The notes beneath the pieces were generated by a model. It was not told where the DNA came from. It made no database searches and saw only the letters and a program-made list of their open reading frames with translations. Both the position numbers and the translations under genes were made by a program. Source: a virus. From it: 28,671 nt of DNA. Positions 9,460 through 28,145 of the stretch are shown here, piece after piece (position 1 is the first letter of the stretch; every line of letters begins with the position of its first letter). The stretch spans positions 1-28,671 of IMG/VR virus record IMGVR_UViG_3300042507_006396, one strand, 5' to 3'.

Positions 9460-10296
9460 CTATGTATAAATATTACCTTTTACTCCGGGAACCATTTTTT
9501 TAATTTCTTCTTCGGAATATTTTTTACTTATTGGAGTATCTAATAAATCAAGATTACCTCCAACCGTTAAACCATTTGGCAATGAGGTAATTTTAGTATT
9601 TCTTAAATCAAGATTACCTCCAACCGTTAAACCATTTGGCAATGAGGTAATTTTAGTATTTCTTAAATCAAGATAGCCACCAACCGTTAAACCATTTGGC
9701 AATGAGGTAATTTTAGTATTTGCTAAATCAAGATAGCCATCAACCGTTAAACCATTTGGCAATGAGGTAATTTTAGTATTTGCTAAATCAAGATAGCCAT
9801 CAACCTTTAGACCATTTGGTAATGATGTAATTGGAGTATTTACTAAATTAAGATTACCCCCAACTTTTAAATCATTTGGTAATGATGTAATTGAAGTATT
9901 TCTTAAATAAAGATCACCTCCAACCTTTAGACTATTTGGTAATGATGTAATTGGAGTATTGGATAAATAAAGATCACCTCCAACCGTTAAACCATTTGGT
10001 AATGATGTAATTTTGGTACGATTTAAATTAAGATAGCCACCAACCGTTAGACCATTAGGTAATGAGGTAATTTTGGTACCATATAAATTAAGATAGCCAC
10101 CAACCGTTAGACCATTTGGTAATGATGTAATTGGGGTATTTCTTAAATCAAGATCACCTTTATCTCCATCCTTCATGTACTGTTCAATCTTTTTTTGGGT
10201 AGCAATTGCAAAATTTTGTTGACGTTCTTCAGGGGAACGTCTAGGTTTGAGAATGTTTAATTTTTCTTCGCGTAAAAGGTCTAAAAGTTTTATCAT
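9460..10296 (-). CDS. Leucine-rich-repeat protein, ten 20-residue repeats
   Basis: A 278-aa protein. After the leader MIKLLDLLREE and a charged helix (about 20-45) come ten tandem repeats of consensus ITSLPNGLTVGGYLDLRNTK, then a short cap ending MVPGVKGNIYT. The LP-containing 20-residue unit belongs to the bacterial LPX-type leucine-rich repeats (as in YopM/IpaH), which form curved binding surfaces. No catalytic domain is attached, so it looks like a pure binding module. The hydrophobic-x-E leader suggests packaging in the head and delivery to the host (inference). A TATAAATA sequence lies just upstream on the minus strand. The partner is unknown. Confidence 0.85.
   Translation of the reverse strand: MIKLLDLLREEKLNILKPRRSPEERQQNFAIATQKKIEQYMKDGDKGDLDLRNTPITSLPNGLTVGGYLNLYGTKITSLPNGLTVGGYLNLNRTKITSLPNGLTVGGDLYLSNTPITSLPNSLKVGGDLYLRNTSITSLPNDLKVGGNLNLVNTPITSLPNGLKVDGYLDLANTKITSLPNGLTVDGYLDLANTKITSLPNGLTVGGYLDLRNTKITSLPNGLTVGGNLDLRNTKITSLPNGLTVGGNLDLLDTPISKKYSEEEIKKMVPGVKGNIYT
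9541..10140. repeat. Tandem array, ten 60-bp units
   Basis: Ten in-frame 60-bp units encode the LRR. The units at 9547-9600 and 9607-9660 are identical, and those at 9661-9780 differ at a few bases. Units at 9781-10140 are more diverged (GATGTAATTGGAG in place of GAGGTAATTTTAG). Homogeneity therefore rises toward the C-terminal end, a sign of recent expansion or conversion there. Confidence 0.95.
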
Positions 10297-14055: not shown

Positions 14056-17000
14056 TTATGAGCTAAATAGTGCCGCTTCTTCTTGTCGTCGTTGTATCAA
14101 TCCTCGGAGTATTTTTCCCTCAGATGTTATTGGTCCTTCTGCTATAAGTTGTGCTGCTAAAGCGTATTGTCCTGTTTGTACGCTAGTCTTGATTCTTTCT
14201 CTTAAACTACCAACATTATATACATAACTTATAAGTGCCGCTTTTTGTCTATCGCTTAATTTATCAAAAGCACCTTTAGTTATTTGGTTTTTACCTTTAC
14301 CTACTAACCTATTATAGTATGTAGTCTGTATTTCAAGTCTAAGAACGGTATCTGCATCGGCACGGGTTGTTGTATCTCCTGGTACTACCTTTCTTATTTT
14401 TCTACTTTTAGCATCAATGACCCTATCTGTACCATATCCCAAACGGTATGCGGTTGCGTCAAATCTTGCTTTTGGAAGGAATTGTTCTTTATATGAAATA
14501 TAATTAAAAGCAATTGTTACCCAATCTCCTCCATTATATGCATTTATATCTATTGGTGCCTTAGCAACTTCGGTATTAGTTGAAGTTGCAGTAAGTGGTG
14601 GTGTAGGTGGACTAATATATCCACTTCCTTCAGGATTTCTAGGCATCCCTAAAGATTCTATTACAGTAGTCCATTGATTGTTTTCTATATTATGTGTTAT
14701 TCCTTTAATAATAAAATCTAAACTTTCAGGATAATTTGTTGGCAAAAATTCTTGTTCTGAGGTATATTTTTGATAAATTTTAAATCCTGATAGACCATCC
14801 ATTGTTAGTTGGAGATTAATAGGGATAAAACCATTACCAGGAGATAATTTATATGGATTTTTTGTTTTATCTTCTAATACTGCAAGAGATTGATTAATAG
14901 AAGCTATAGTTTTATTTAGTTTTACTAAATCTTTTCCTATGTTTTTCATACTATCTATTAAATCAGTATCGCCTAAATCTTGATCACCATATACTGTTTT
15001 TAAAAATTTAACAACTGTTGAAGTAATAGGAATTACACTATTATAAAAATTACTAATTAATTGTTCTTTAGGATCATTACTAGTATCTATATTAGCATCA
15101 ATTATCTCGGGTTTCATTCTATCTGTTAAACCATAATTCATTTTAGATAAACATGTAGCATCTTCTCCAACAACTAACCCACGAGCTTGAGCCCCTACTG
15201 TTATCATAGTTGCAAAACTTGCTGGAATTTCTGTTCTAAATGAAAAATCTCTGATAAAACTAGCCTGTCCTCCACTTTCTTTATATCCAAACATATTGAA
15301 TTTAGCTAATTCTGGGCCATCTCCTACTGTTTGAACTGCTTTACCCTTAAAATCTTCTTTTTTTAGAAATGTATCTCTATCTGGGAGAGCTATTTCATCT
15401 ATAAAAATTATTTCATTATTTTCGTTTATAGTTGGAGTTAATTTATTATAATAACAAGTTGCTTCTGAGAATCCATCGCATATTGATTGTAAGAAATCTA
15501 ATAGTATTATGTTTCCCTCACTATCAACCATTGAATCCATCTTAGATAAGATCCAATTCATATTGAAATACACATTCATTAAATAAAGATAACGATTGTT
15601 ATTTTCAATAAATTCACCTTCTAAAAACATTTCACGTACAGAATATGATAATTGTTCTTCTGTAGCTTGTACAGCTTGGGTTACTTCTTTAGGTGGTTCA
15701 ATATTGGCTTTAATAGAAGATCTAACCTTTTCAAAATTAGAAGGAACAGGATCATTAATTATGTCTCCTAATTGTATTTCTTCACCACTAGCACCTGGAT
15801 CATCTCTTGATTGTTTTTCTGAAAATAAAATTATATTGTAGTTAAGTCCAGCTTCTGTAATATCTGCTTGTCTAGCAATAATACCATATTTCTCATAAGT
15901 ATTATCTATGATTTTTATTATTTCACTTATGTCTTTTAACTTTCCTTCTTCATTTAGAAAGGCTTTATTATTTAAAATAATATCAACATTATTTATAACC
16001 TCATTTACTTGTGTATTTGCAGTTTCATTTAAAGTTGTAGATAATGAAGTATTTGTTATACCTAATAATGGATTAACTATAGTAGTTTTAAAAACACATA
16101 TTCCAGGATCAGTAATTATTTGTCTTTGTTCTAGATGAATAATATTTGTTTTTGTATCAGTATTTAATAAAATAGTTGGAACAATTTTATTATTTTTCTT
16201 AATTTGGGGTATTAAATTTTGTTGAATCCAATCAAGTAAATATCCCAGTCTTATGTAATATATACTATTTTGGGGGTGAGTATCCCACCAAAACGCATGT
16301 TCTTTTTTGTTTTTCCATTTTATTTGACCATAATTTGCAGCAGCTCCACTAACAGGCTCTCCTCCTAATCTTTTCATTAAATCGTAAAAATGTTGTCCCA
16401 TTTTTGATTTTTTAGAATATACTTCCAAGGATTCTTCATTATCTTTAGGTTTAGGTTTACTATCAGATTTAGCATCAGTATAATCTAATTTTATATCACT
16501 TTTAATGTTTGATAAAGAAGTATTTATTTTAAGTGATTCAATAACATCTCCAACACTTCTAACAGTCAATGTTATATCGTAACTTAAATCTTTATTTACA
16601 GTCCAACTATAGTTTACAACTTTTCCTAAAACCGCATCATAATTACCAAAAAATTGTTTTCTTCTTAAGTCTATTATAGGTAATAAAGAATTATAGGTTA
16701 TAGGCGATCCAGTTTTATCTTTACCTGTTAAAAATAAACTTTCTAAAGTAGCCTGACCAAAAGTAGCATTACCATTAGCATCAACATCATTTTTTAATTT
16801 TCCATCATTATCATAAAACATACTATGTCCCCACTCTAATAAAACTGTATATCCTAATCTAAGATATAATAAATCAATAATATCAAATTGTTTTCTATTA
16901 TATGCTTTTATAACAATTGTAGAAGTTCTTAATGATCCTCTATTTTCTGTTTTTATATTTGCACTTACTATACCTGGCATTGGGCTTAGTCCATAATCTA

Positions 17001-17352
17001 GACCTCCCAATCCATACGCTCCCATATTATGAACGGAACCATCTCTTGTAATTCCTGATCTTTGTTCTATTGTTGCTCCTTCTATTGCGTTTGGAGTATA
17101 TTTAGTAACTCCCCCAAATAAAACATATTGTTCAGCTAATGCTGATTCTCCATCCCCTCTTAACCCATCTAAAATTTTTCGGGGGTTAATTTCTTTATTA
17201 ACATCTACAGATGAAACTAATCTCACCCATCCAGTTTTAGAATTCATCCAACTTAATAACTCATTATCTCTATGTGATGAACCTAATTTAGTTTGTCTTA
17301 GATTTATTTGATCTACTATTTCTTTTGGAAAATTTTCTCCTACAATATTCAT
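14056..17352 (-). CDS. Large baseplate protein with C-terminal T4-type lysozyme domain
   Basis: A 1098-aa protein. Residues 1 to about 930 are unrecognised structural sequence, beginning MNIVGENFPKEIVDQINLRQ. Residues about 945-1098 match the GH24/T4 lysozyme fold: catalytic Glu956 in ISYKEQF, Asp965 nine residues later in ARFDATAYRLGYGTD (same spacing as T4 E11 and D20), LSDRQKAALISYVYNVGSL, and the end GLIQRRQEEAALF. The T4 Thr26 position appears to be Arg, as I recall for several phage relatives. It would cut peptidoglycan as the tail penetrates, the role of T4 gp5, but here the enzyme is fused to a different large protein. It overlaps or abuts its upstream neighbour with a 2-nt gap. Confidence 0.8.
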   Translation of the reverse strand: MNIVGENFPKEIVDQINLRQTKLGSSHRDNELLSWMNSKTGWVRLVSSVDVNKEINPRKILDGLRGDGESALAEQYVLFGGVTKYTPNAIEGATIEQRSGITRDGSVHNMGAYGLGGLDYGLSPMPGIVSANIKTENRGSLRTSTIVIKAYNRKQFDIIDLLYLRLGYTVLLEWGHSMFYDNDGKLKNDVDANGNATFGQATLESLFLTGKDKTGSPITYNSLLPIIDLRRKQFFGNYDAVLGKVVNYSWTVNKDLSYDITLTVRSVGDVIESLKINTSLSNIKSDIKLDYTDAKSDSKPKPKDNEESLEVYSKKSKMGQHFYDLMKRLGGEPVSGAAANYGQIKWKNKKEHAFWWDTHPQNSIYYIRLGYLLDWIQQNLIPQIKKNNKIVPTILLNTDTKTNIIHLEQRQIITDPGICVFKTTIVNPLLGITNTSLSTTLNETANTQVNEVINNVDIILNNKAFLNEEGKLKDISEIIKIIDNTYEKYGIIARQADITEAGLNYNIILFSEKQSRDDPGASGEEIQLGDIINDPVPSNFEKVRSSIKANIEPPKEVTQAVQATEEQLSYSVREMFLEGEFIENNNRYLYLMNVYFNMNWILSKMDSMVDSEGNIILLDFLQSICDGFSEATCYYNKLTPTINENNEIIFIDEIALPDRDTFLKKEDFKGKAVQTVGDGPELAKFNMFGYKESGGQASFIRDFSFRTEIPASFATMITVGAQARGLVVGEDATCLSKMNYGLTDRMKPEIIDANIDTSNDPKEQLISNFYNSVIPITSTVVKFLKTVYGDQDLGDTDLIDSMKNIGKDLVKLNKTIASINQSLAVLEDKTKNPYKLSPGNGFIPINLQLTMDGLSGFKIYQKYTSEQEFLPTNYPESLDFIIKGITHNIENNQWTTVIESLGMPRNPEGSGYISPPTPPLTATSTNTEVAKAPIDINAYNGGDWVTIAFNYISYKEQFLPKARFDATAYRLGYGTDRVIDAKSRKIRKVVPGDTTTRADADTVLRLEIQTTYYNRLVGKGKNQITKGAFDKLSDRQKAALISYVYNVGSLRERIKTSVQTGQYALAAQLIAEGPITSEGKILRGLIQRRQEEAALFSS

Positions 17353-20074: not shown

Positions 20075-22411
20075 CTATTGAACTTTAACTGCTCCAATAT
20101 TGTGAGCTTGTCCTACTTTATTACTATCCATTTTTATTGTATTATCTTTTATTAGTATTTGATTTAGGACTGATTTTACTGCTTGAAGTTCTTGTATCAT
20201 AGGAGTTATATCTATTGAAGGTTGAGATCCACCACCTTTTGGTTTTTTAGTACCTGCTAAATCTGTTCCTGCTACTATTTGATCATTAGGATTTAATTGT
20301 ACTGTACCAAATTCTCCAGATACTATAGGGCCTTTTTTAGGATCAATAACACCATCTTTCATTGCCATTGCTGCGCCTACTGCCCCCATTACTGCACCCA
20401 TTACTGCTGCAATTCCTCCTATGATTGCTGGAGTAGCAAGACCAACAGTGGTGGCTTCAGCAGTAGCGGTAGCAGCCGCCGCATTAGCTAAATTAAGTCC
20501 CAACATTGTACCTAATTGTAAAGTATTTTTTACTAACCCCCCTAATAGAACTCCAGTTATTACAGTAGCTAATCCGGTAAATAATACCTTCATTAATCCA
20601 GTATGTTCAGCCATAGATGCTAACATTTCTAATGGACCTGCTAATGCTTCACCCATTTTACTTATGGATTTATTTATACTTTCTTGAACTGATAGTCTTT
20701 TAAAGTCTTCTACATTCATCCCTGATGCTTTTTGTACTTGCTCATCTGTTAATCCTAATTGGGATTTTTGATCTATTATCATCTTAGCAATATCTTCTCT
20801 TTGTAAACCAACAGATTTGGCTACTGCTTCTTGTTGTAATCTATTTCCTGAAGTATATGCACTTATTATATCTTGATTTTGGCCTATTTCTTTAGTAAGT
20901 TCAGCCGTTTCACCATTTAAAGCTAATAATCGGGCTTTTTCAAAATTTAAATCTTTTCCGGTTAATAATTCGGCTTCAATTTCCGATGATATTGATGACT
21001 CAAAATCTAGTAATGAACTTGCTATTTGTTCTGATTTTTCTAGTGAGAGACCAAATTTTCTTGCCTCTAAATTAGCTTGAGCAATTTTTGAAGCATTTCC
21101 TCCTAAATTAACTGCAATAACATTTGAGGTATTGGCTACATCACTTAATATTTGTTTTTGCGATATTGCTGTTCTATTAGTTTTATTGAAATTACCAGCT
21201 GTTTTAATTACACTTTCATTTGCCTTTTTTAATTCAGTTCCATTTAATTTAGAAAGCATAGCTAATTTACCTGCTTCTTCACTACTCATTCCCATAAGTT
21301 CAACCATTTCAGTTGCCTCTTGTAAAGTTTTAGAGGTAAAAATTAAATCAGCTTGAAATCCTAATTGTTTAGTTAAATCAGTAGCGGTTTTAATATAATC
21401 AGAAAGTGTAGTTACACTTGTACTTGTAGCATCCCATCGACTTGCTGTTCTTCCTGTTTCTCTTCCAAAATCTGTTTGGGCTTGGTTTAATGATGCAAAT
21501 CCTTTTACTATTAATCCTACTACAGATGCTACTATTACTGTAGGATCAAGTAGATTCTCTTTCATAGACTTACCGATATTTTTAAATGCTATTCCCATAG
21601 CCTCAGTTTTACCAATAATTCTATTTTCTGCTTTTTCTAATTCTTTAATTTGTGTTTTGACTTTTTCGAAAGCAGTACTTATTCCCGGAAGGTCTTTTAT
21701 GAATGGAATTTCCTTCATACCAGCCATGGTGGCTCCTATTACTCCCATTCTTCTATTTAAATTTTCGAGATATATTTCTTCATCCTTTCTTTCTTCGTTT
21801 TGTTTTTCTAATTCTTTAGTCTGTAACTGTAAATAAAGAAGCTGCTGTTCTTCAACGCTTAAGGATTTATTTAATATATTGAAATTTTCTTCACTAGTAT
21901 TTATTTTTTCATTTAATTCTTTAATACTTTGTTGGATTAAATCTAATTGAAATTGTTCTAAATCATTTTCTTCCTGTAATCCTTGGATTAGTTCTTGTCT
22001 TTGATGATAAAAATTATTTATATTATTTAATTCTTTAGCAGCTGCTTTTACTTTTTCTTCATTACTTATTTTGGATAGATTTCTTTCTAAGATTGTTGAT
22101 TTTGCTATTAAGTCTTTATTCGATTTAATTTGTTTGGTTAAATCTTTAATATCGTCATATTCTCCCTTTTGAGAAAGAAGAGATTTATTTATTTGTTTAC
22201 TAATCCCATATATGTCATTTTCAAAAGCAGTCAATTTAGTTTTAACTCCTAATACCTCTTTTAAAGATTCTAAATATGAACTAGATAAAGAATATCCTTC
22301 TTCCTGAAGACTTAGTCTTTTACGTAGTAGATCAATTTCTTCTTTTTGAAGTTTAATTGTTTCTTGAACTTTTGAAGTATCTTGATTTTGATTATTTATA
22401 GGATCTGCCAT
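20075..22411 (-). CDS. Tail tape measure protein
   Basis: A 778-aa protein that sets tail length and occupies the tube lumen. Residues about 10-270 are almost continuous charged helix with heptad repeats (KVQETIKLQKEEIDLLRKRL onward). Hydrophobic stretches follow near 290-310 and 600-690 (LFTGLATVITGVLLGGL; Ala/Gly-rich GGIAAVMGAVMGAVGAAMAM), as is usual for tape measures. The C-terminal GPIVSGEFGTVQLNPNDQIVAGTDL is a pattern I know from marine phage tape measures. At about 1.5 angstrom per residue it would predict a tail a little over 110 nm. Its place after tail tube and gp26-like genes is canonical. Confidence 0.88.
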   Translation of the reverse strand: MADPINNQNQDTSKVQETIKLQKEEIDLLRKRLSLQEEGYSLSSSYLESLKEVLGVKTKLTAFENDIYGISKQINKSLLSQKGEYDDIKDLTKQIKSNKDLIAKSTILERNLSKISNEEKVKAAAKELNNINNFYHQRQELIQGLQEENDLEQFQLDLIQQSIKELNEKINTSEENFNILNKSLSVEEQQLLYLQLQTKELEKQNEERKDEEIYLENLNRRMGVIGATMAGMKEIPFIKDLPGISTAFEKVKTQIKELEKAENRIIGKTEAMGIAFKNIGKSMKENLLDPTVIVASVVGLIVKGFASLNQAQTDFGRETGRTASRWDATSTSVTTLSDYIKTATDLTKQLGFQADLIFTSKTLQEATEMVELMGMSSEEAGKLAMLSKLNGTELKKANESVIKTAGNFNKTNRTAISQKQILSDVANTSNVIAVNLGGNASKIAQANLEARKFGLSLEKSEQIASSLLDFESSISSEIEAELLTGKDLNFEKARLLALNGETAELTKEIGQNQDIISAYTSGNRLQQEAVAKSVGLQREDIAKMIIDQKSQLGLTDEQVQKASGMNVEDFKRLSVQESINKSISKMGEALAGPLEMLASMAEHTGLMKVLFTGLATVITGVLLGGLVKNTLQLGTMLGLNLANAAAATATAEATTVGLATPAIIGGIAAVMGAVMGAVGAAMAMKDGVIDPKKGPIVSGEFGTVQLNPNDQIVAGTDLAGTKKPKGGGSQPSIDITPMIQELQAVKSVLNQILIKDNTIKMDSNKVGQAHNIGAVKVQ

Positions 22412-22437: not shown

Positions 22438-22465
22438 TTAAAAGGCATCACTTTCGCGATACCTT
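22436..22465 (-). terminator. Terminator-like hairpin after the chaperone frame
   Basis: An 8-bp stem AAGGTATC / GATGCCTT (one G:T) with an 8-nt loop lies on the minus strand, followed by TTAATATTT. It contains the stop codon of the +1 frame. The T-tract is weak, so some read-through to the tape measure is expected. Confidence 0.45.
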
Positions 22466-22741
22466 AGTTTGATATGTTTGTGGTAATTTCTTAACAAAAT
22501 CAGGAACTTTTATATTTTGAGATGCTTTTTGAGCAGCTGCTCCTGATTTATTAATCCATGAATCTTCAGCTTGGGAATTTTTATTTTGATTTTCGTAGTG
22601 TTCTTTAATTTTATTAAATGTGAACTTTCTTAACCAAATAGGCATATTATAAATAGTATTCCAATCATAACCGCCATTTCCATGAAATACTATCTCATGA
22701 ATTTGAGTAAATAAATGAAATCTATATTCTTGCGTCAGGCC
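22448..22741 (-). CDS. +1-frame extension of the gp26-like protein (gp51-like position)
   Basis: This frame is open from the T7 run of the gp26-like gene to 22448. Read from 22741 it gives 97 residues starting GLTQEYRFHLFTQIHEIV, passing through GNGGYDWNTIYNMPIWLRKF and ending in a basic tail. The first ATG inside it is at 22645 (MPIWLRKFTF, 65 aa), but the open stretch upstream of that ATG is rich in sensible residues and joins exactly at the slippery run. I therefore read it as the C-terminal part of a frameshifted tail assembly chaperone, about 343 aa in full. T4 has gene 51 directly after gene 26. The alternative is a separate 65-aa gene. Confidence 0.7.
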   Translation of the reverse strand, partial: GLTQEYRFHLFTQIHEIVFHGNGGYDWNTIYNMPIWLRKFTFNKIKEHYENQNKNSQAEDSWINKSGAAAQKASQNIKVPDFVKKLPQTYQTKVSRK

Positions 22742-23480
22742 AAAAAAAGCTAATCCCCATAGGGATCGTTAAGCCCTCCTCTAAGCCATTTGGACCTTCA
22801 AAATCAAATTTCATATCGATATCGGGTTGGATTAATTTAATATATTCTCTAAGTGATCTAGTATCTTTAGCTAAAAAATAATTATCAACAAATTCTCTAA
22901 TTGTTTTTGTTGTGCTGTCTCCATTAACTGATGTAATCATATATTTAAACCTAGTAGATGATTCTGGTGAAGCGTTTTTATTAATTTTCTTTAATCCCTG
23001 AAGTTCTTGGTTAATTTTATTTTCATCACTATGAGTTAATAATTTAAAAGTAATTTTAGTACCTGAAGCTGGTAATTCATATTCAAATTCATTTTTACCT
23101 GGAGTAAATAAGCTTTCATCAATAGGTTTAGGTTCTAATGTACTTAAATCTACAGTTACATTTTCTCCTTTGTAGGTAAATTCATAATCTTTTCCGTATC
23201 CTAAAACACGTGCTGCTATTAATAATGCATTTTTATCACCAACTATAATATCTCCATAATTAATCTTTGATACTATGAGGGATTCAATCAATTTATCCAA
23301 AACTGTACCGTTTTGGATATAACTTTGGTTCGTTAAAATATCTTCATGAGCAGCAGTCATATATTTCATTTCAATTTTTCCACTTGAAAGTGGATTTGTT
23401 GATGGGTAGACTAAACCTTTAGAAGGTAGTTCAACTATTTCAGTTGGGAATGGGGATTTGTTTGTAACTTCGTTTGACAT
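22722..23480 (-). CDS. gp26-like baseplate / tail assembly chaperone
   Basis: A 252-aa protein of the T4 gp26 baseplate family, recognised from VELPSKGLVYPSTNPLSSGKIEM, MTAAHEDILTNQSYIQNGTVLDKLIESLI and VGDKNALLIAARVLGYG (residues about 16-95). The 0 frame ends ISFFWPDARI. The TTT TTT TGG codons (22748-22740) form a T7 run where a +1 shift leads into a 97-residue open frame. Its location between tail tube and tape measure is where long-tailed phages encode the frameshifted chaperone pair that loads the tape measure. An exact late element precedes it. Confidence 0.85.
   Translation of the reverse strand: MSNEVTNKSPFPTEIVELPSKGLVYPSTNPLSSGKIEMKYMTAAHEDILTNQSYIQNGTVLDKLIESLIVSKINYGDIIVGDKNALLIAARVLGYGKDYEFTYKGENVTVDLSTLEPKPIDESLFTPGKNEFEYELPASGTKITFKLLTHSDENKINQELQGLKKINKNASPESSTRFKYMITSVNGDSTTKTIREFVDNYFLAKDTRSLREYIKLIQPDIDMKFDFEGPNGLEEGLTIPMGISFFWPDARI
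22741..22751 (-). promoter_or_regulatory. Putative ribosomal frameshift site
   Basis: On the minus strand the 0-frame codons are AGC TTT TTT TGG. After the second TTT, the P-site tRNA can re-pair perfectly one base on (or two back), entering the open +1 frame at GGC CTG. A -1 shift meets TGA after two codons, so +1 or -2 is needed. Confidence 0.55.
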
Positions 23481-23523: not shown

Positions 23524-23556
23524 AAAAAATCCTCCTATTTTTTTAAGATAGGAGGA
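23524..23556 (-). terminator. Terminator at the end of homing endonuclease 1
   Basis: A 9-bp stem TCCTCCTAT / ATAGGAGGA lies on the minus strand, followed by six Ts. The endonuclease stop codon (23535-23537) is inside the stem. Its 3' half, AAATAGGAGGATTTTT, nearly repeats the 3' half of the terminator at 24315-24353. Confidence 0.85.
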
Positions 23557-24314
23557 CAATTTTCTAAAAGAATTTTTTTAACTATACTGATGTTATTGTT
23601 AATATCATTTTCCCAAAAACGTAACATTTTATATCCGTTATCTTGAACCCACTTATTCTTTTTTTCATCGTTAATTGAATTTTTAATCTGGCACTTATAT
23701 GTAGGACCATCTGGGTATTTTGTAGGATTGGAATGCCAAAAATCTCCGTCTACTTCTATTAGTATATTATAATCTGGGAGATAGAAATCATAAAATGCTC
23801 TGATTTCTTTAATATAGAATGATTGAGAGTAGTTTATATTTAAGAGAGTTAATATATTAGCAAACGTTTTTTCTAGTTTGGATTGATTATATTTTTTCTT
23901 TCCTATCTCTCCGGTTTCCCATTTATTTTTAGCAGTTTCGCTCATCTTTTTACGAGTTTCTTCAGATTGAACTCTTCCTACTCCAAATCCCTCAGGTTTA
24001 GGTTTAGGTATACCTTTAGCTCCTTGTGATATTTTTTTACCTAATTCAACATTGTCTCTATCTTTAACCGCTTGTTTTATATGATCATATTCACCTGAGG
24101 TGAATTTTTCTTTGCGTGTTTTGATAATAGCTTGTACTCGTTTTTCAGATTTAGGATCTCCAAAATGTCCTGGGACACGAGATTGGTGACCATGTATCCA
24201 TTTACAGAAGTCTTTTAGTTTGGCTTCATATCTTGTTTGGGTGCCGCACCCACACAAACATGTGGGATGTATTCCGTTATATTTTTCCTGTATTATTTTG
24301 TCTTTCTTGAGCAT
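23535..24314 (-). CDS. Homing endonuclease, Vsr/DUF559-like with NUMOD3 repeats
   Basis: A 259-aa free-standing homing endonuclease. The N-terminus has a cysteine cluster CLCGCG (C19, C21, C23) with a further Cys37 and His residues, likely zinc binding. Residues about 110-135 (SEETRKKMSETAKNKWE) are a NUMOD3 DNA-binding unit. The nuclease core has FYDFYLPDYNILIEVDGDFWH with D176, E187, D189 and H194, then NDEKKNKWVQDNGYKMLRFWEND. It sits between tail tube and gp26-like genes, both intact. The ATG begins immediately after the T-run of the upstream terminator, with GGGGG of that stem in Shine-Dalgarno position. Confidence 0.85.
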   Translation of the reverse strand: MLKKDKIIQEKYNGIHPTCLCGCGTQTRYEAKLKDFCKWIHGHQSRVPGHFGDPKSEKRVQAIIKTRKEKFTSGEYDHIKQAVKDRDNVELGKKISQGAKGIPKPKPEGFGVGRVQSEETRKKMSETAKNKWETGEIGKKKYNQSKLEKTFANILTLLNINYSQSFYIKEIRAFYDFYLPDYNILIEVDGDFWHSNPTKYPDGPTYKCQIKNSINDEKKNKWVQDNGYKMLRFWENDINNNISIVKKILLENCPPILKK

Positions 24315-24402: not shown

Positions 24403-24891
24403 CTAATAATTGAGAACACAATAATCCATTGCGACTTCCAGTGTTAAGTTTTGTGCTGCAGATTCATTGTCCCAGCTATACTCACCAAAGTTAGCATTTA
24501 CAATTAAAGCGCCTTTAATAATCCATTCACTTACGATATCACCTACTGGACCTAATACGTTTAATGTTAAATCTTTCTTATAAAAGTCAGAATAACCATC
24601 TCTACCAGTTACTGATTCGTGATGTAAACGTACCCACTCCATTACTGCTTGAGCTCCGGAAGGTGTGATTGGATCAAAAAGAGTCATTGTAATGTTACTC
24701 CATTTTGATTTTCCTTTTACTTTACGTAAAATGTTAATGTGGTTCAATACTACTTCGTCTTGAGTTAAAGTAATTGCGCTTATTCCTTTAATAGTATATG
24801 ATGGAATACCATCAACATACATAATAAATCTATTTTGCTGTTTGGGCTCGAATGCCGTAAAGAATATCTCATTTGGGTTTAATACTGCCAT
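24403..24891 (-). CDS. Tail tube protein, T4 gp19-like
   Basis: A 162-aa tube subunit, the length and pattern of T4 gp19: FEPKQQNRFIMYVDGIPSYTIKGIS (about 14-38), VVLNHINILRKVKGKSKWSNITMTLFDPITPSGAQAVMEWV (about 47-88) and the C-terminal SWDNESAAQNLTLEVAMDYCVLNY. It stacks in hexameric rings inside the sheath. An exact late element lies 10 nt upstream. It normally follows the sheath gene directly; here two endonuclease genes separate them. The reading frame is complete, so no intron interrupts it. Confidence 0.93.
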   Translation of the reverse strand: MAVLNPNEIFFTAFEPKQQNRFIMYVDGIPSYTIKGISAITLTQDEVVLNHINILRKVKGKSKWSNITMTLFDPITPSGAQAVMEWVRLHHESVTGRDGYSDFYKKDLTLNVLGPVGDIVSEWIIKGALIVNANFGEYSWDNESAAQNLTLEVAMDYCVLNY

Positions 24892-24983: not shown

Positions 24984-26468
24984 ATGGCACGTCCAAAAAA
25001 ACCACCAATTCAAAATACATGCAAACATTGTTTCGTTATGTTTGAAACTCGACCTTCATCAGCTAGAGATTTTTGTACTAAAAAATGTGCTCAACAACAT
25101 AAGGGAGTTGATAGAGAGTGGATGGAAAAACGAAAAAAAACATGTTTAGAAAAATATGGAAATGAAATAGCATTTAAATCTAAAGAAGTACAAGATAAAT
25201 ATAAAAATAATTTAATTGAAAAATATGGTGTTAATAATCCATTTTTAGTAAAAGAATTTAAGGATAAATCTAATAATACTGTTTTTGAAAGATATGGGTA
25301 TAAGTTTGCAACACAAAATAAAGATATTTCAGATAAGATATCTGTGAAATTAAAAGGACAAATACATGATAGAAAAAATTTTGTTAATTTAAAGTGGGAA
25401 AAATTAGTAAACTATCAAAATACATCAGGAATGGTTCCTTTATTTGATAAAGAATATTTAGAACAAAATAAAGTGAATCATTTATTTAGGAATAAATTCA
25501 AATTTCAATGTAACAAATGTTCTGAGGTTACTGAGGTATTTTTGAGTAATGGTTATCTTCCATCATGTAAGTGTTCTGATTATAAAGGATATTCGTTGAT
25601 TGAAGATGAATTAGTAGTTTTCTTATTTAACCATCTTTTATCTTCAGATATATGTTTAAATAGAAGAGATATATTACCTAATAGACAGGAAATTGATGTT
25701 TTTATAAAGTCACATAATTTAGCTATTGAAATTAATGGAGTGTATTGGCATTCAGAATCTATGGGGAAATATAAAAATTACCATTTATATAAAACAGAAA
25801 AATGTAGTGAAGTGGGAATTAATTTAATTCACATTTTAGATTATGAATGGATTTTTAAAAAACCAATTATACAATCTATAATTTTAAGTAAATTGGGAAT
25901 ATTTGATGATAAAATATATGCTCGTAAATGTACAGTTAATAAAATTGAAGATACTACTATAATTAGAAAATTCCTAAATGAAAATCACATGCAAGGTTAT
26001 ACTCATGCTTCTGTTTCTTTAGGATTGTATTATAATAATGAATTAGTTTCTATTATGACTTTTGGTAAAAATAGATTTAAGAAAAATTCAAATGAATTTG
26101 AAATGGTTAGATTTTGTAATAAATTAAATACTATTGTTGTCGGAGGAGCCTCAAAATTATTTAAACACTTTATTAATAATGGTAATAATAATTTAGATAT
26201 TGTGAGTTTTGCTGATAGGAGGTTTTTTGATGGTAATTTATATAAAACCTTGGGTTTTGAATTTAGTACTAATACATCTCCATCTTACATATATTGGAAA
26301 AATAATAATGTATTAAATAGGATGTCCTGTCAAAAACACAAATTAAATAAATTATTAGATATATTTGATGCAGAAAAATCGGAATATCAAAACATGTTAG
26401 ATAATGGATTTAGGAGGGTTTGGGATTGTGGTAATATGAAATTTATATATAAAAAAAAGGGAACCTAA
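24984..26468 (+). CDS. Homing endonuclease, plus-strand, zinc-finger type
   Basis: A 494-aa free-standing homing endonuclease and the only plus-strand gene. Domains in order: N-terminal zinc finger (C13, C16, C31, C35); helical repeats with the motif EKYGVNNPF (about 53-115); a second zinc ribbon (C176, C179, C195, C197); the nuclease core QEIDVFIKSHNLAIEINGVYWHSE with D238, E249, N251 and H256; then a C-terminal domain with NHMQGYTHASVSLGLYYNNELVSIMTFGK and FADRRFFDGNLY. It is a clear paralogue of the gene at 26526-28145 and converges on it. It opposes all neighbouring transcription, which marks it as an insert. Confidence 0.87.
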   Translation: MARPKKPPIQNTCKHCFVMFETRPSSARDFCTKKCAQQHKGVDREWMEKRKKTCLEKYGNEIAFKSKEVQDKYKNNLIEKYGVNNPFLVKEFKDKSNNTVFERYGYKFATQNKDISDKISVKLKGQIHDRKNFVNLKWEKLVNYQNTSGMVPLFDKEYLEQNKVNHLFRNKFKFQCNKCSEVTEVFLSNGYLPSCKCSDYKGYSLIEDELVVFLFNHLLSSDICLNRRDILPNRQEIDVFIKSHNLAIEINGVYWHSESMGKYKNYHLYKTEKCSEVGINLIHILDYEWIFKKPIIQSIILSKLGIFDDKIYARKCTVNKIEDTTIIRKFLNENHMQGYTHASVSLGLYYNNELVSIMTFGKNRFKKNSNEFEMVRFCNKLNTIVVGGASKLFKHFINNGNNNLDIVSFADRRFFDGNLYKTLGFEFSTNTSPSYIYWKNNNVLNRMSCQKHKLNKLLDIFDAEKSEYQNMLDNGFRRVWDCGNMKFIYKKKGT

Positions 26469-26525: not shown

Positions 26526-28145
26526 TTAAAAGTTAATTTGGTATTTTTTACTTCCACAGTCCCAAATTCTATCATATCCATTAGATTTCATATTTTCCCA
26601 TTCGGATTTGGTTTTATCAAAATTACTTAATATTTTAGGTAATTCTGATTTTCTGTATTTATATCTATGTTCTCTTACTTTATGGTATTTCATATACCAA
26701 TAATTTGGTTGGGTATTATGGATAAAATTAAATCCGTTTGATTGATATATTTCCCCTTGGCTCCATCTTCTATCGGCATAGCTAATTATATTATTAGGAG
26801 TTAATAATTTAATGAAATGTTTAAACAGCTTGGAAAAACTACCAATAACTGTTGTGCTTAGTTTATTACAGAACCTAATTAATTCATATTCACCCTCTTT
26901 AGCTTTATTACCTGTAATTTTTCGGAGTGACCCAAATGTCATGATAGAAACTAATTCATTATTATAATATAACCCAATTTTGATTTTAGATTTATCTTCT
27001 CCCTGAATATGGTTATCATTTAAGAATTTATTTTTTGTTTTATTATCTATTTCCTTAATTATACATTTTCGAGCATATATTTTATTTTGATTTAATTTTA
27101 AAATATTTCTGATTCTTGATTTTACTATTTCTTGTTTATTGTCCCACTCATCTTCAAATATATGAATTAACTTGGTATTATTTCGTTCTAATTCTTCAGT
27201 TTTATATAAGTGATATTCTTTATTTTTCCCATTAAGTTCAGAATGCCAATATATTCCATTAAATTCAAAAGCAACATTATATTCAGGTATGAATATATCT
27301 ATTTCTCTCCCCTTAACTAATTTTTTATTATTAAATATTATTTCTCCACTATATATTTCTTTTAAAAATGATTGAATTTCTTTCTCTTTAACAGATGTTC
27401 CTATACTAACTGTTGGATCTTTATATTTGGGTAATCTCCCACATGCTAAGTGATCAATAAAAGTCTCTCCAGTAGGAATATGTTTAAATCTATAGTATTT
27501 CAGATCCCCGTTCATTTCTTTCACTCCATTAAATTCATCTAATAATTCTAAATTATTATCATGCAACCATACTTTTAATTCCTCAAAAAAATTAGATTTC
27601 ATTTTATTTATAATCCCATCTTTTAATATGCTACCACTACATAAAGGATATATAGCCCCATATTTTTCAAGGTTGGTTTTTTGAATCTTTTGGTTTATTT
27701 TATCTCTTTCAATTTGAGAAATATTTAATAATGTACTCGATATTTTATTATTAATATTTTTTTTATCTTCAACTGAGAGACTGCTCCAATATTTCTTTCT
27801 TATTTTTGATCTTTCGTCTGAGTTTTTATTCATATTATTATATCCTTTGACTTCAAAAGGATTATCTACTCCATATTTTTCTTGAAGAGTTTTAACTGAT
27901 TTAACTCTAGATTGTTTTCGGTCTATATTACTATGTGAACATTTTATACTACAGTATTTTTGATCAGATCTATTTGATGGGACTTTAAATTCTTCTTTAC
28001 ATCCTATACAATTAATTGTAAGAGTATGTTTTTCATTATAACAACTCCTATTACAATATTTTTTATATAATGGAATATCATTACCACAATTATTACAAGG
28101 GTGTTTTTTACCTGTTCCCTCTCTGTTAGATTTTTTTAAATTCAT
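26526..28145 (-). CDS. Homing endonuclease, minus-strand paralogue
   Basis: A 539-aa free-standing homing endonuclease. Two N-terminal zinc fingers are seen (C17, C20, C31, C35 and C46, C49, C65, C69), then LQEKYGVDNPF and NLEKYGAIYP repeats, and the nuclease core REIDIFIPEYNVAFEFNGIYWHSE with D283, E294, N296 and H301. The C-terminal domain shares YYNNELVSIMTFGSLRK and SYADRRWSQGEIY with the plus-strand paralogue. The gene lies between the sheath terminator and the convergent paralogue. Both sheath and tube frames are uninterrupted, so it is an intergenic insertion. Confidence 0.87.
   Translation of the reverse strand: MNLKKSNREGTGKKHPCNNCGNDIPLYKKYCNRSCYNEKHTLTINCIGCKEEFKVPSNRSDQKYCSIKCSHSNIDRKQSRVKSVKTLQEKYGVDNPFEVKGYNNMNKNSDERSKIRKKYWSSLSVEDKKNINNKISSTLLNISQIERDKINQKIQKTNLEKYGAIYPLCSGSILKDGIINKMKSNFFEELKVWLHDNNLELLDEFNGVKEMNGDLKYYRFKHIPTGETFIDHLACGRLPKYKDPTVSIGTSVKEKEIQSFLKEIYSGEIIFNNKKLVKGREIDIFIPEYNVAFEFNGIYWHSELNGKNKEYHLYKTEELERNNTKLIHIFEDEWDNKQEIVKSRIRNILKLNQNKIYARKCIIKEIDNKTKNKFLNDNHIQGEDKSKIKIGLYYNNELVSIMTFGSLRKITGNKAKEGEYELIRFCNKLSTTVIGSFSKLFKHFIKLLTPNNIISYADRRWSQGEIYQSNGFNFIHNTQPNYWYMKYHKVREHRYKYRKSELPKILSNFDKTKSEWENMKSNGYDRIWDCGSKKYQINF

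Follow-up and report, generated by a model that had tools for sequence, protein, structure and literature searches.

The window, as we call the whole stretch of 28,671 nucleotides that was analysed, carries on its minus strand a gp26-like gene with TTTTTTTGGCCTGAC directly ahead of its stop codon. In the 0 frame, the end of this gene read ...ATT AGC TTT TTT TGG CCT GAC GCA AGA ATA TAG. The run of seven Ts noticed in a previous, sequence-only reading of this DNA was found on the minus strand exactly where it had been placed (Table 1). After a shift to +1, translation continues as FF-GLTQEYRFHLF..., in a frame open for 97 codons up to the stop at 22448. The earliest ATG, GTG or TTG in this frame lies 32 codons past the slip site, so that its description as an open frame with no start before codon 32 agrees with our own reading of the frames. 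The -1 frame is shut immediately by a TGA within GGCCTGAC. The core TTTYTTTGGCCTGAC gave a single match within the window.

Table 1 Features of the putative tail chaperone locus and its neighbours in the window.
Feature	Position	Strand	Basis
Tail tube protein, upstream neighbour	24403–24891	-	phrog_4542 (E = 3.6e-20), weak PF06841 (gp19)
Gp26-like 0-frame gene, predicted short form (TAC-N), 252 aa, C-terminus ...MGISFFWPDARI followed by the stop	22722–23480	-	phrog_150 and immuto match
Predicted frameshift product (TAC-NC), 343 aa, ...MGISFF-GLTQEYR...	22448–23480	-	phrog_150 extension; AlphaFold2
Putative slip heptamer TTT TTT T, 0-frame codons TTT TTT TGG	22742–22748	-	seven Ts
Putative recoding core TTTYTTTGGCCTGAC, double-read as FFWPD / FFGLT	22734–22748	-	conserved base counts
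0-frame stop TAG, predicted end of the short form	22722–22724	-	ORF reading
Predicted +1-frame domain (TAC-C), 97 codons and stop	22448–22741	-	open frame; pN/pS 0.24–0.31
Tape measure candidate, 778 aa, immediate downstream neighbour	20075–22411	-	position, length

The 0-frame protein matched phrog_150, the baseplate hub family of T4 gp26/gp51, with an E value of 1.9e-11 over residues 7–247. PF12322 gave no direct match for the window protein; the relatives in RM378, SP-15 and GXN1 matched it with E values from 2e-9 to 1e-28. Both phrog_150 and PF12322 are matched by T4 gp26 as well as by T4 gp51. The gene order tail tube, chaperone, tape measure was also found in the Flavobacterium phage immuto, in which the counterpart of the tape measure candidate is annotated as tail tape measure protein.

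Between the tail tube and chaperone genes, the window has an endonuclease-like ORF (23535–24314, minus strand; DUF559/Vsr, NUMOD3), probably a homing endonuclease, at a place where immuto has only ~110 bases. Two large ORFs flank the tail genes (24984–26468, plus strand, and 26526–28145, minus strand), with C-terminal matches to the Mom family (E values of 1e-3 and 6e-8). In both, an endonuclease-like part seemingly precedes the Mom match, an odd pairing. Elsewhere on the minus strand we detected a probable baseplate protein of 1098 aa with a C-terminal phage lysozyme domain in residues 971–1092 (14056–17352), and a leucine-rich repeat protein with near-identical repeats TSLPNGLTVGGYLNL (9460–10296).

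Relatives of the gp26-like protein are encoded on more than 590 IMG/VR stretches, 80 of which were fetched. The baseplate hub subunit of immuto was 63% identical to the window protein and the relative from Microcystis phage Mel-JY01 47%, while those from a metagenomic jumbo phage, RM378, SP-15 and Streptococcus phage GXN1 were 25–36% identical. Automatic reading recognized the same layout (Phe codons, then a 0-frame stop at most 16 codons on, and an open +1 frame) at 85 loci, including immuto, Mel-JY01, RM378, SP-15 and GXN1. It was present in most of 98 further loci, so that most of the ~180 related loci share it.

Base counts were taken from 60 distinct 0-frame sequences of the relatives. 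TTT YTT T was kept in 60 out of 60, with the +1 frame open beyond it in all, in support of a proposed shift that is conserved among relatives. The first slip codon was always TTT (60/60), a codon with a share of 81% among the Phe codons elsewhere in the gene; the second was TTT in 53 and CTT in 7. The heptamer was followed by GG in 59 of the 60 sequences, then by CCT (60/60) and by the C closing GAC (57/60), and the complete TGG CCT GAC was found in 56. Double coding accounts for the conservation of CCT and GAC, since the bases that encode WPD in the 0 frame also encode GLT in the +1 frame. Upstream of the slip site, synonymous positions were free to vary. When IMG/VR was scanned with the bare 15-nt TTTYTTTGGCCTGAC, using no protein homology, 79 of the 80 sites inspected were this junction. 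Judged from the sequences, the slip-site layout is neither a sequencing error nor chance, the latter because TTT YTT T, GG, CCT and GAC are conserved in 60 distinct relatives together with the open +1 frame.

A homopolymer of seven would suit a sequencing or assembly indel within one continuous gene. This explanation, to which we give next to no probability, is refuted by the relatives: the same frame break occurs in the independently sequenced isolates immuto, Mel-JY01, SP-15 and RM378 and is shared by scores of metagenomic contigs, and the overlapping peptides FFWPD and FFGLT are both conserved.

In the stretch of the +1 frame from the 0-frame stop to the usual first Met (codons 7–31), pN/pS was 0.31, and 0.24 in close pairs. 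The same bases gave 1.6 and 1.0 in the other two frames. Third positions were the most variable. By these substitution patterns, the downstream frame is under purifying selection at the protein level already ahead of the usual first Met. This selection, and the conservation of codons 1–31, speak against the downstream ORF being translated on its own, without fusion, by ribosomes that re-initiate or start at an internal ATG (the YNMP Met). Separate translation would fit two observations: most relatives have an ATG at codon 32 or 36, and a separate ORF is annotated in immuto and Mel-JY01. However, the Met of YNMP lies within a conserved core and is a Phe in several relatives. Moreover, the downstream frames of loci L052/L053 (identical in this part) and L078 are devoid of any ATG, GTG or TTG, and given standard starts only a shift reaches them. 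We consider separate translation very unlikely for the window, even with two distant relatives, L105 and L110, on its side. In these, the downstream domain occupies the -1 frame and has a separate ATG a few bases past the gp26 stop, and in L105 the slip site is gone. The +1 frameshift is therefore not universal, and in these two loci it has apparently been lost, as far as their reading frames tell. The sequence-only reading had counted relatives relying on their own ATG against a shift; two such relatives were seen, L105 and L110.

The direction of the shift can be read from the variants of the slip site. We found TTT CTT TGG, TTC TTT TGG and CTT TTT TGG, with YTT followed by T as the only common element. 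YTT-T was present in nearly all alleles and makes re-pairing of the P-site tRNA at +1 possible; in the L003 allele, TTT CTA TTC, the +1 slip would be needed at TTT-C. Since the variants all keep YTT-T, which is what a +1 P-site slip requires, a +1 ribosomal shift is favoured over transcriptional slippage and over a -2 shift. RNA polymerase slipping on the T run would produce mRNAs with one U less or two Us more, then read straight, and seven Ts are indeed found in the window and most relatives. In TTTCTTTGG (7 of the 60 distinct core alleles) and TTCTTTTGG (14 loci), however, the T runs are just 3–4 long and the architecture is kept, making polymerase slippage highly improbable. A -2 ribosomal shift would enter the identical final frame, with FFF-GLT instead of FF-GLT in the product, and is feasible on the seven Ts and, by wobble, on TTTCTTT. 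On TTC TTT TGG it would put tRNA-Phe on UCU, with a mismatch in the middle position, whereas a +1 move leads to the cognate UUU; the GXN1 site, TTC TTT CGT, behaves similarly. Of the two directions proposed earlier, +1 thus gained support, and we regard -2 as extremely unlikely.

No stimulatory element was recognized around the site. Downstream of it, RNAalifold predicted zero pairs for 36 sequences, and single folds had z scores from -1.2 to +0.9. Upstream, no Shine-Dalgarno-like stimulator was conserved, the bases being variable among the 60 distinct sequences.

With a probability of roughly 0.9, we propose that a single mRNA yields both forms of a tail assembly chaperone of the T4 superfamily through a programmed +1 frameshift. 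The majority of ribosomes would remain in the 0 frame and reach the stop six codons past the second slip-site Phe, giving TAC-N of 252 aa. Some would slip +1 at TTT TTT TGG, where the P-site peptidyl-tRNA-Phe would leave its UUU for the UUU that overlaps it. GGC would then be read next in place of UGG, and 97 more codons would yield TAC-NC of 343 aa. Decoding of UGG in the A site may be the slow step. On the model of lambda G/GT, the N part would coat the tape measure protein, with the C domain recruiting tail tube subunits, and neither TAC-N nor TAC-NC would be expected in the virion. We infer the occurrence of the slip in vivo, its efficiency and the partners of the chaperone.

Judging by profile matches, the C domain probably corresponds to the extension at the C-terminus of gp51. 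T4 gp26 covers positions 14–235 of phrog_150 and T4 gp51 positions 13–280, from which it follows that the end of the profile represents the gp51 extension. Fusing the downstream frame to the window protein moved the end of the match from 233 to 266 (of 282) and raised the score from 44.9 to 51.3 bits (+6.4), while four shuffled tails brought no gain (43–45 bits). The fusion tail of L003 added 3.3 bits and lengthened the match; that of immuto added nothing. Comparison of our own small alignments with T4 gp26/gp51 by hhalign was not significant (P 0.06–0.2). The frame that had been assigned to the gp51 position would accordingly be the C-terminal domain of the long form, and not a whole gp51.

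We modelled the fusion with AlphaFold2, using the window fusion and unchanged 0-frame rows, which left the C-terminal part without alignment depth. The mean pLDDT was 80.8 for the fusion and 67.8 for the C domain modelled alone, the latter judged too low for a fold search. For the fusion model, the Foldseek rank 1 was a weak match to the tail assembly chaperone gp13 of HK97 (2ob9, E 0.57), and VIA ranks 1–2 were YqbN (3klu, Z 5.6), an XkdN-type protein from a chaperone family, and HK97 gp13 (2ob9, Z 4.7), both below Z 8. All these matches lay in residues 1–100. Weak as they are, these matches fit the location of the gene between tail tube and tape measure. Family, position and weak predicted-fold similarity together indicate that the locus encodes a tail assembly chaperone pair, a predicted short TAC-N and a long frameshifted TAC-NC. 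The chaperone role had been proposed from gene position, and it now has the family match and the same order in immuto behind it.

T4 genes 26 and 51 are adjacent, as the sequence-only reading had stated; the same order it had attributed to them does not hold, the two being on opposite strands and divergently transcribed. They share phrog_150 with the window protein, whose short form corresponds to gp26 and whose C domain maps to the profile section that gp51 alone covers. In T4, the short and long forms come from two divergent paralogous genes, gp51 being an independent long paralogue, whereas the window has one gene and a +1 shift. The suggestion that gp26 and gp51 are a chaperone pair was right, yet already published: Vladimirov, Gautam and Davidson, to go by the papers citing their 2022 work, reportedly equated T4 26/51 with TAC-N/TAC-NC. 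The annotation of Acinetobacter phage Stupor follows this TAC naming. Some T4-like phages are described, in a paper citing the same study, as carrying a short TAC gene alongside a long, fused one (PMC10885494). The study is also cited in PMC12846349, according to which TAC genes of T4-like phages are known to have poly-T -1 signals. A 2016 review still listed T4 as an exception (PMC5009743).

Both polarities occur among the relatives. In S-SM2, C48C1, Vibrio F86 and XacN1 the continuation was in the -1 frame after T_TTT_TTY, and in SP-15, its relatives LIS04 and GXN1, and RM378 it was in +1. The Kyanoviridae (S-SM2, C48C1), Vibrio F86 and XacN1 share with the window the gene family, the layout and the frame break at the Phe-Phe codons ending the gp26 gene, but their downstream frame is -1 (T_TTT_TTC type). 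In the relatives L116, L197, L198, L200 and L201, the C domain of the chaperone lay in the -1 frame, with the break at T_TTT_TTY, a polarity opposite to that of the window. For the frameshifted domain, separate or truncated ORFs starting at an internal codon are annotated in L197 (3196–3369), L001 (4848–4958) and L201 (3244–3348).

Lambda G/GT is likewise a short and a frameshifted long chaperone, both absent from the virion (PMC5009743), but its shift is -1, and similarity to the window sequence was neither found nor expected. The +1 frameshift site CUU UGA of bacterial prfB (RF2) shares the CUU-to-UUU P-site slip with the CTT TGG variants; it differs in that the A site of the relatives is the sense codon UGG and not a stop, and in that no conserved Shine-Dalgarno element was seen at the tail site. 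Another presumed +1 tail-chaperone shift is that of the archaeal myovirus HSTV-2, in a tail gene with a likely +1 shift (PMC5009743).

It seems fairly probable to us that one chaperone family has arrived at at least four short/long solutions at the same point: -1 (S-SM2, C48C1, Vibrio F86, XacN1), +1 (Immutovirus-type, Mel-JY01, SP-15/LIS04, RM378), a separate ATG-initiated ORF (L105, L110) and duplication (T4). The polarity would have been switched on the same Phe-Phe codons, and YTT TGG would represent a class of tail frameshift signals that is widespread and so far undescribed. The short/long tail chaperone frameshift as such is known. What may be new, Vladimirov et al. 2022 being compared via citing papers, is the +1 polarity with an RF2-like YTT TGG site in the Immutovirus-type lineage. 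Most of the tail-chaperone frameshifts known to date are -1. A short conserved +1 site, apparently working without an RNA stimulator, would help to annotate the long chaperone in environmental T4-type phages, in many of which the annotation of the chaperone ORF is now missing or truncated. With -1, +1, split and duplicated arrangements in one family, the evolution of recoding would become directly testable.
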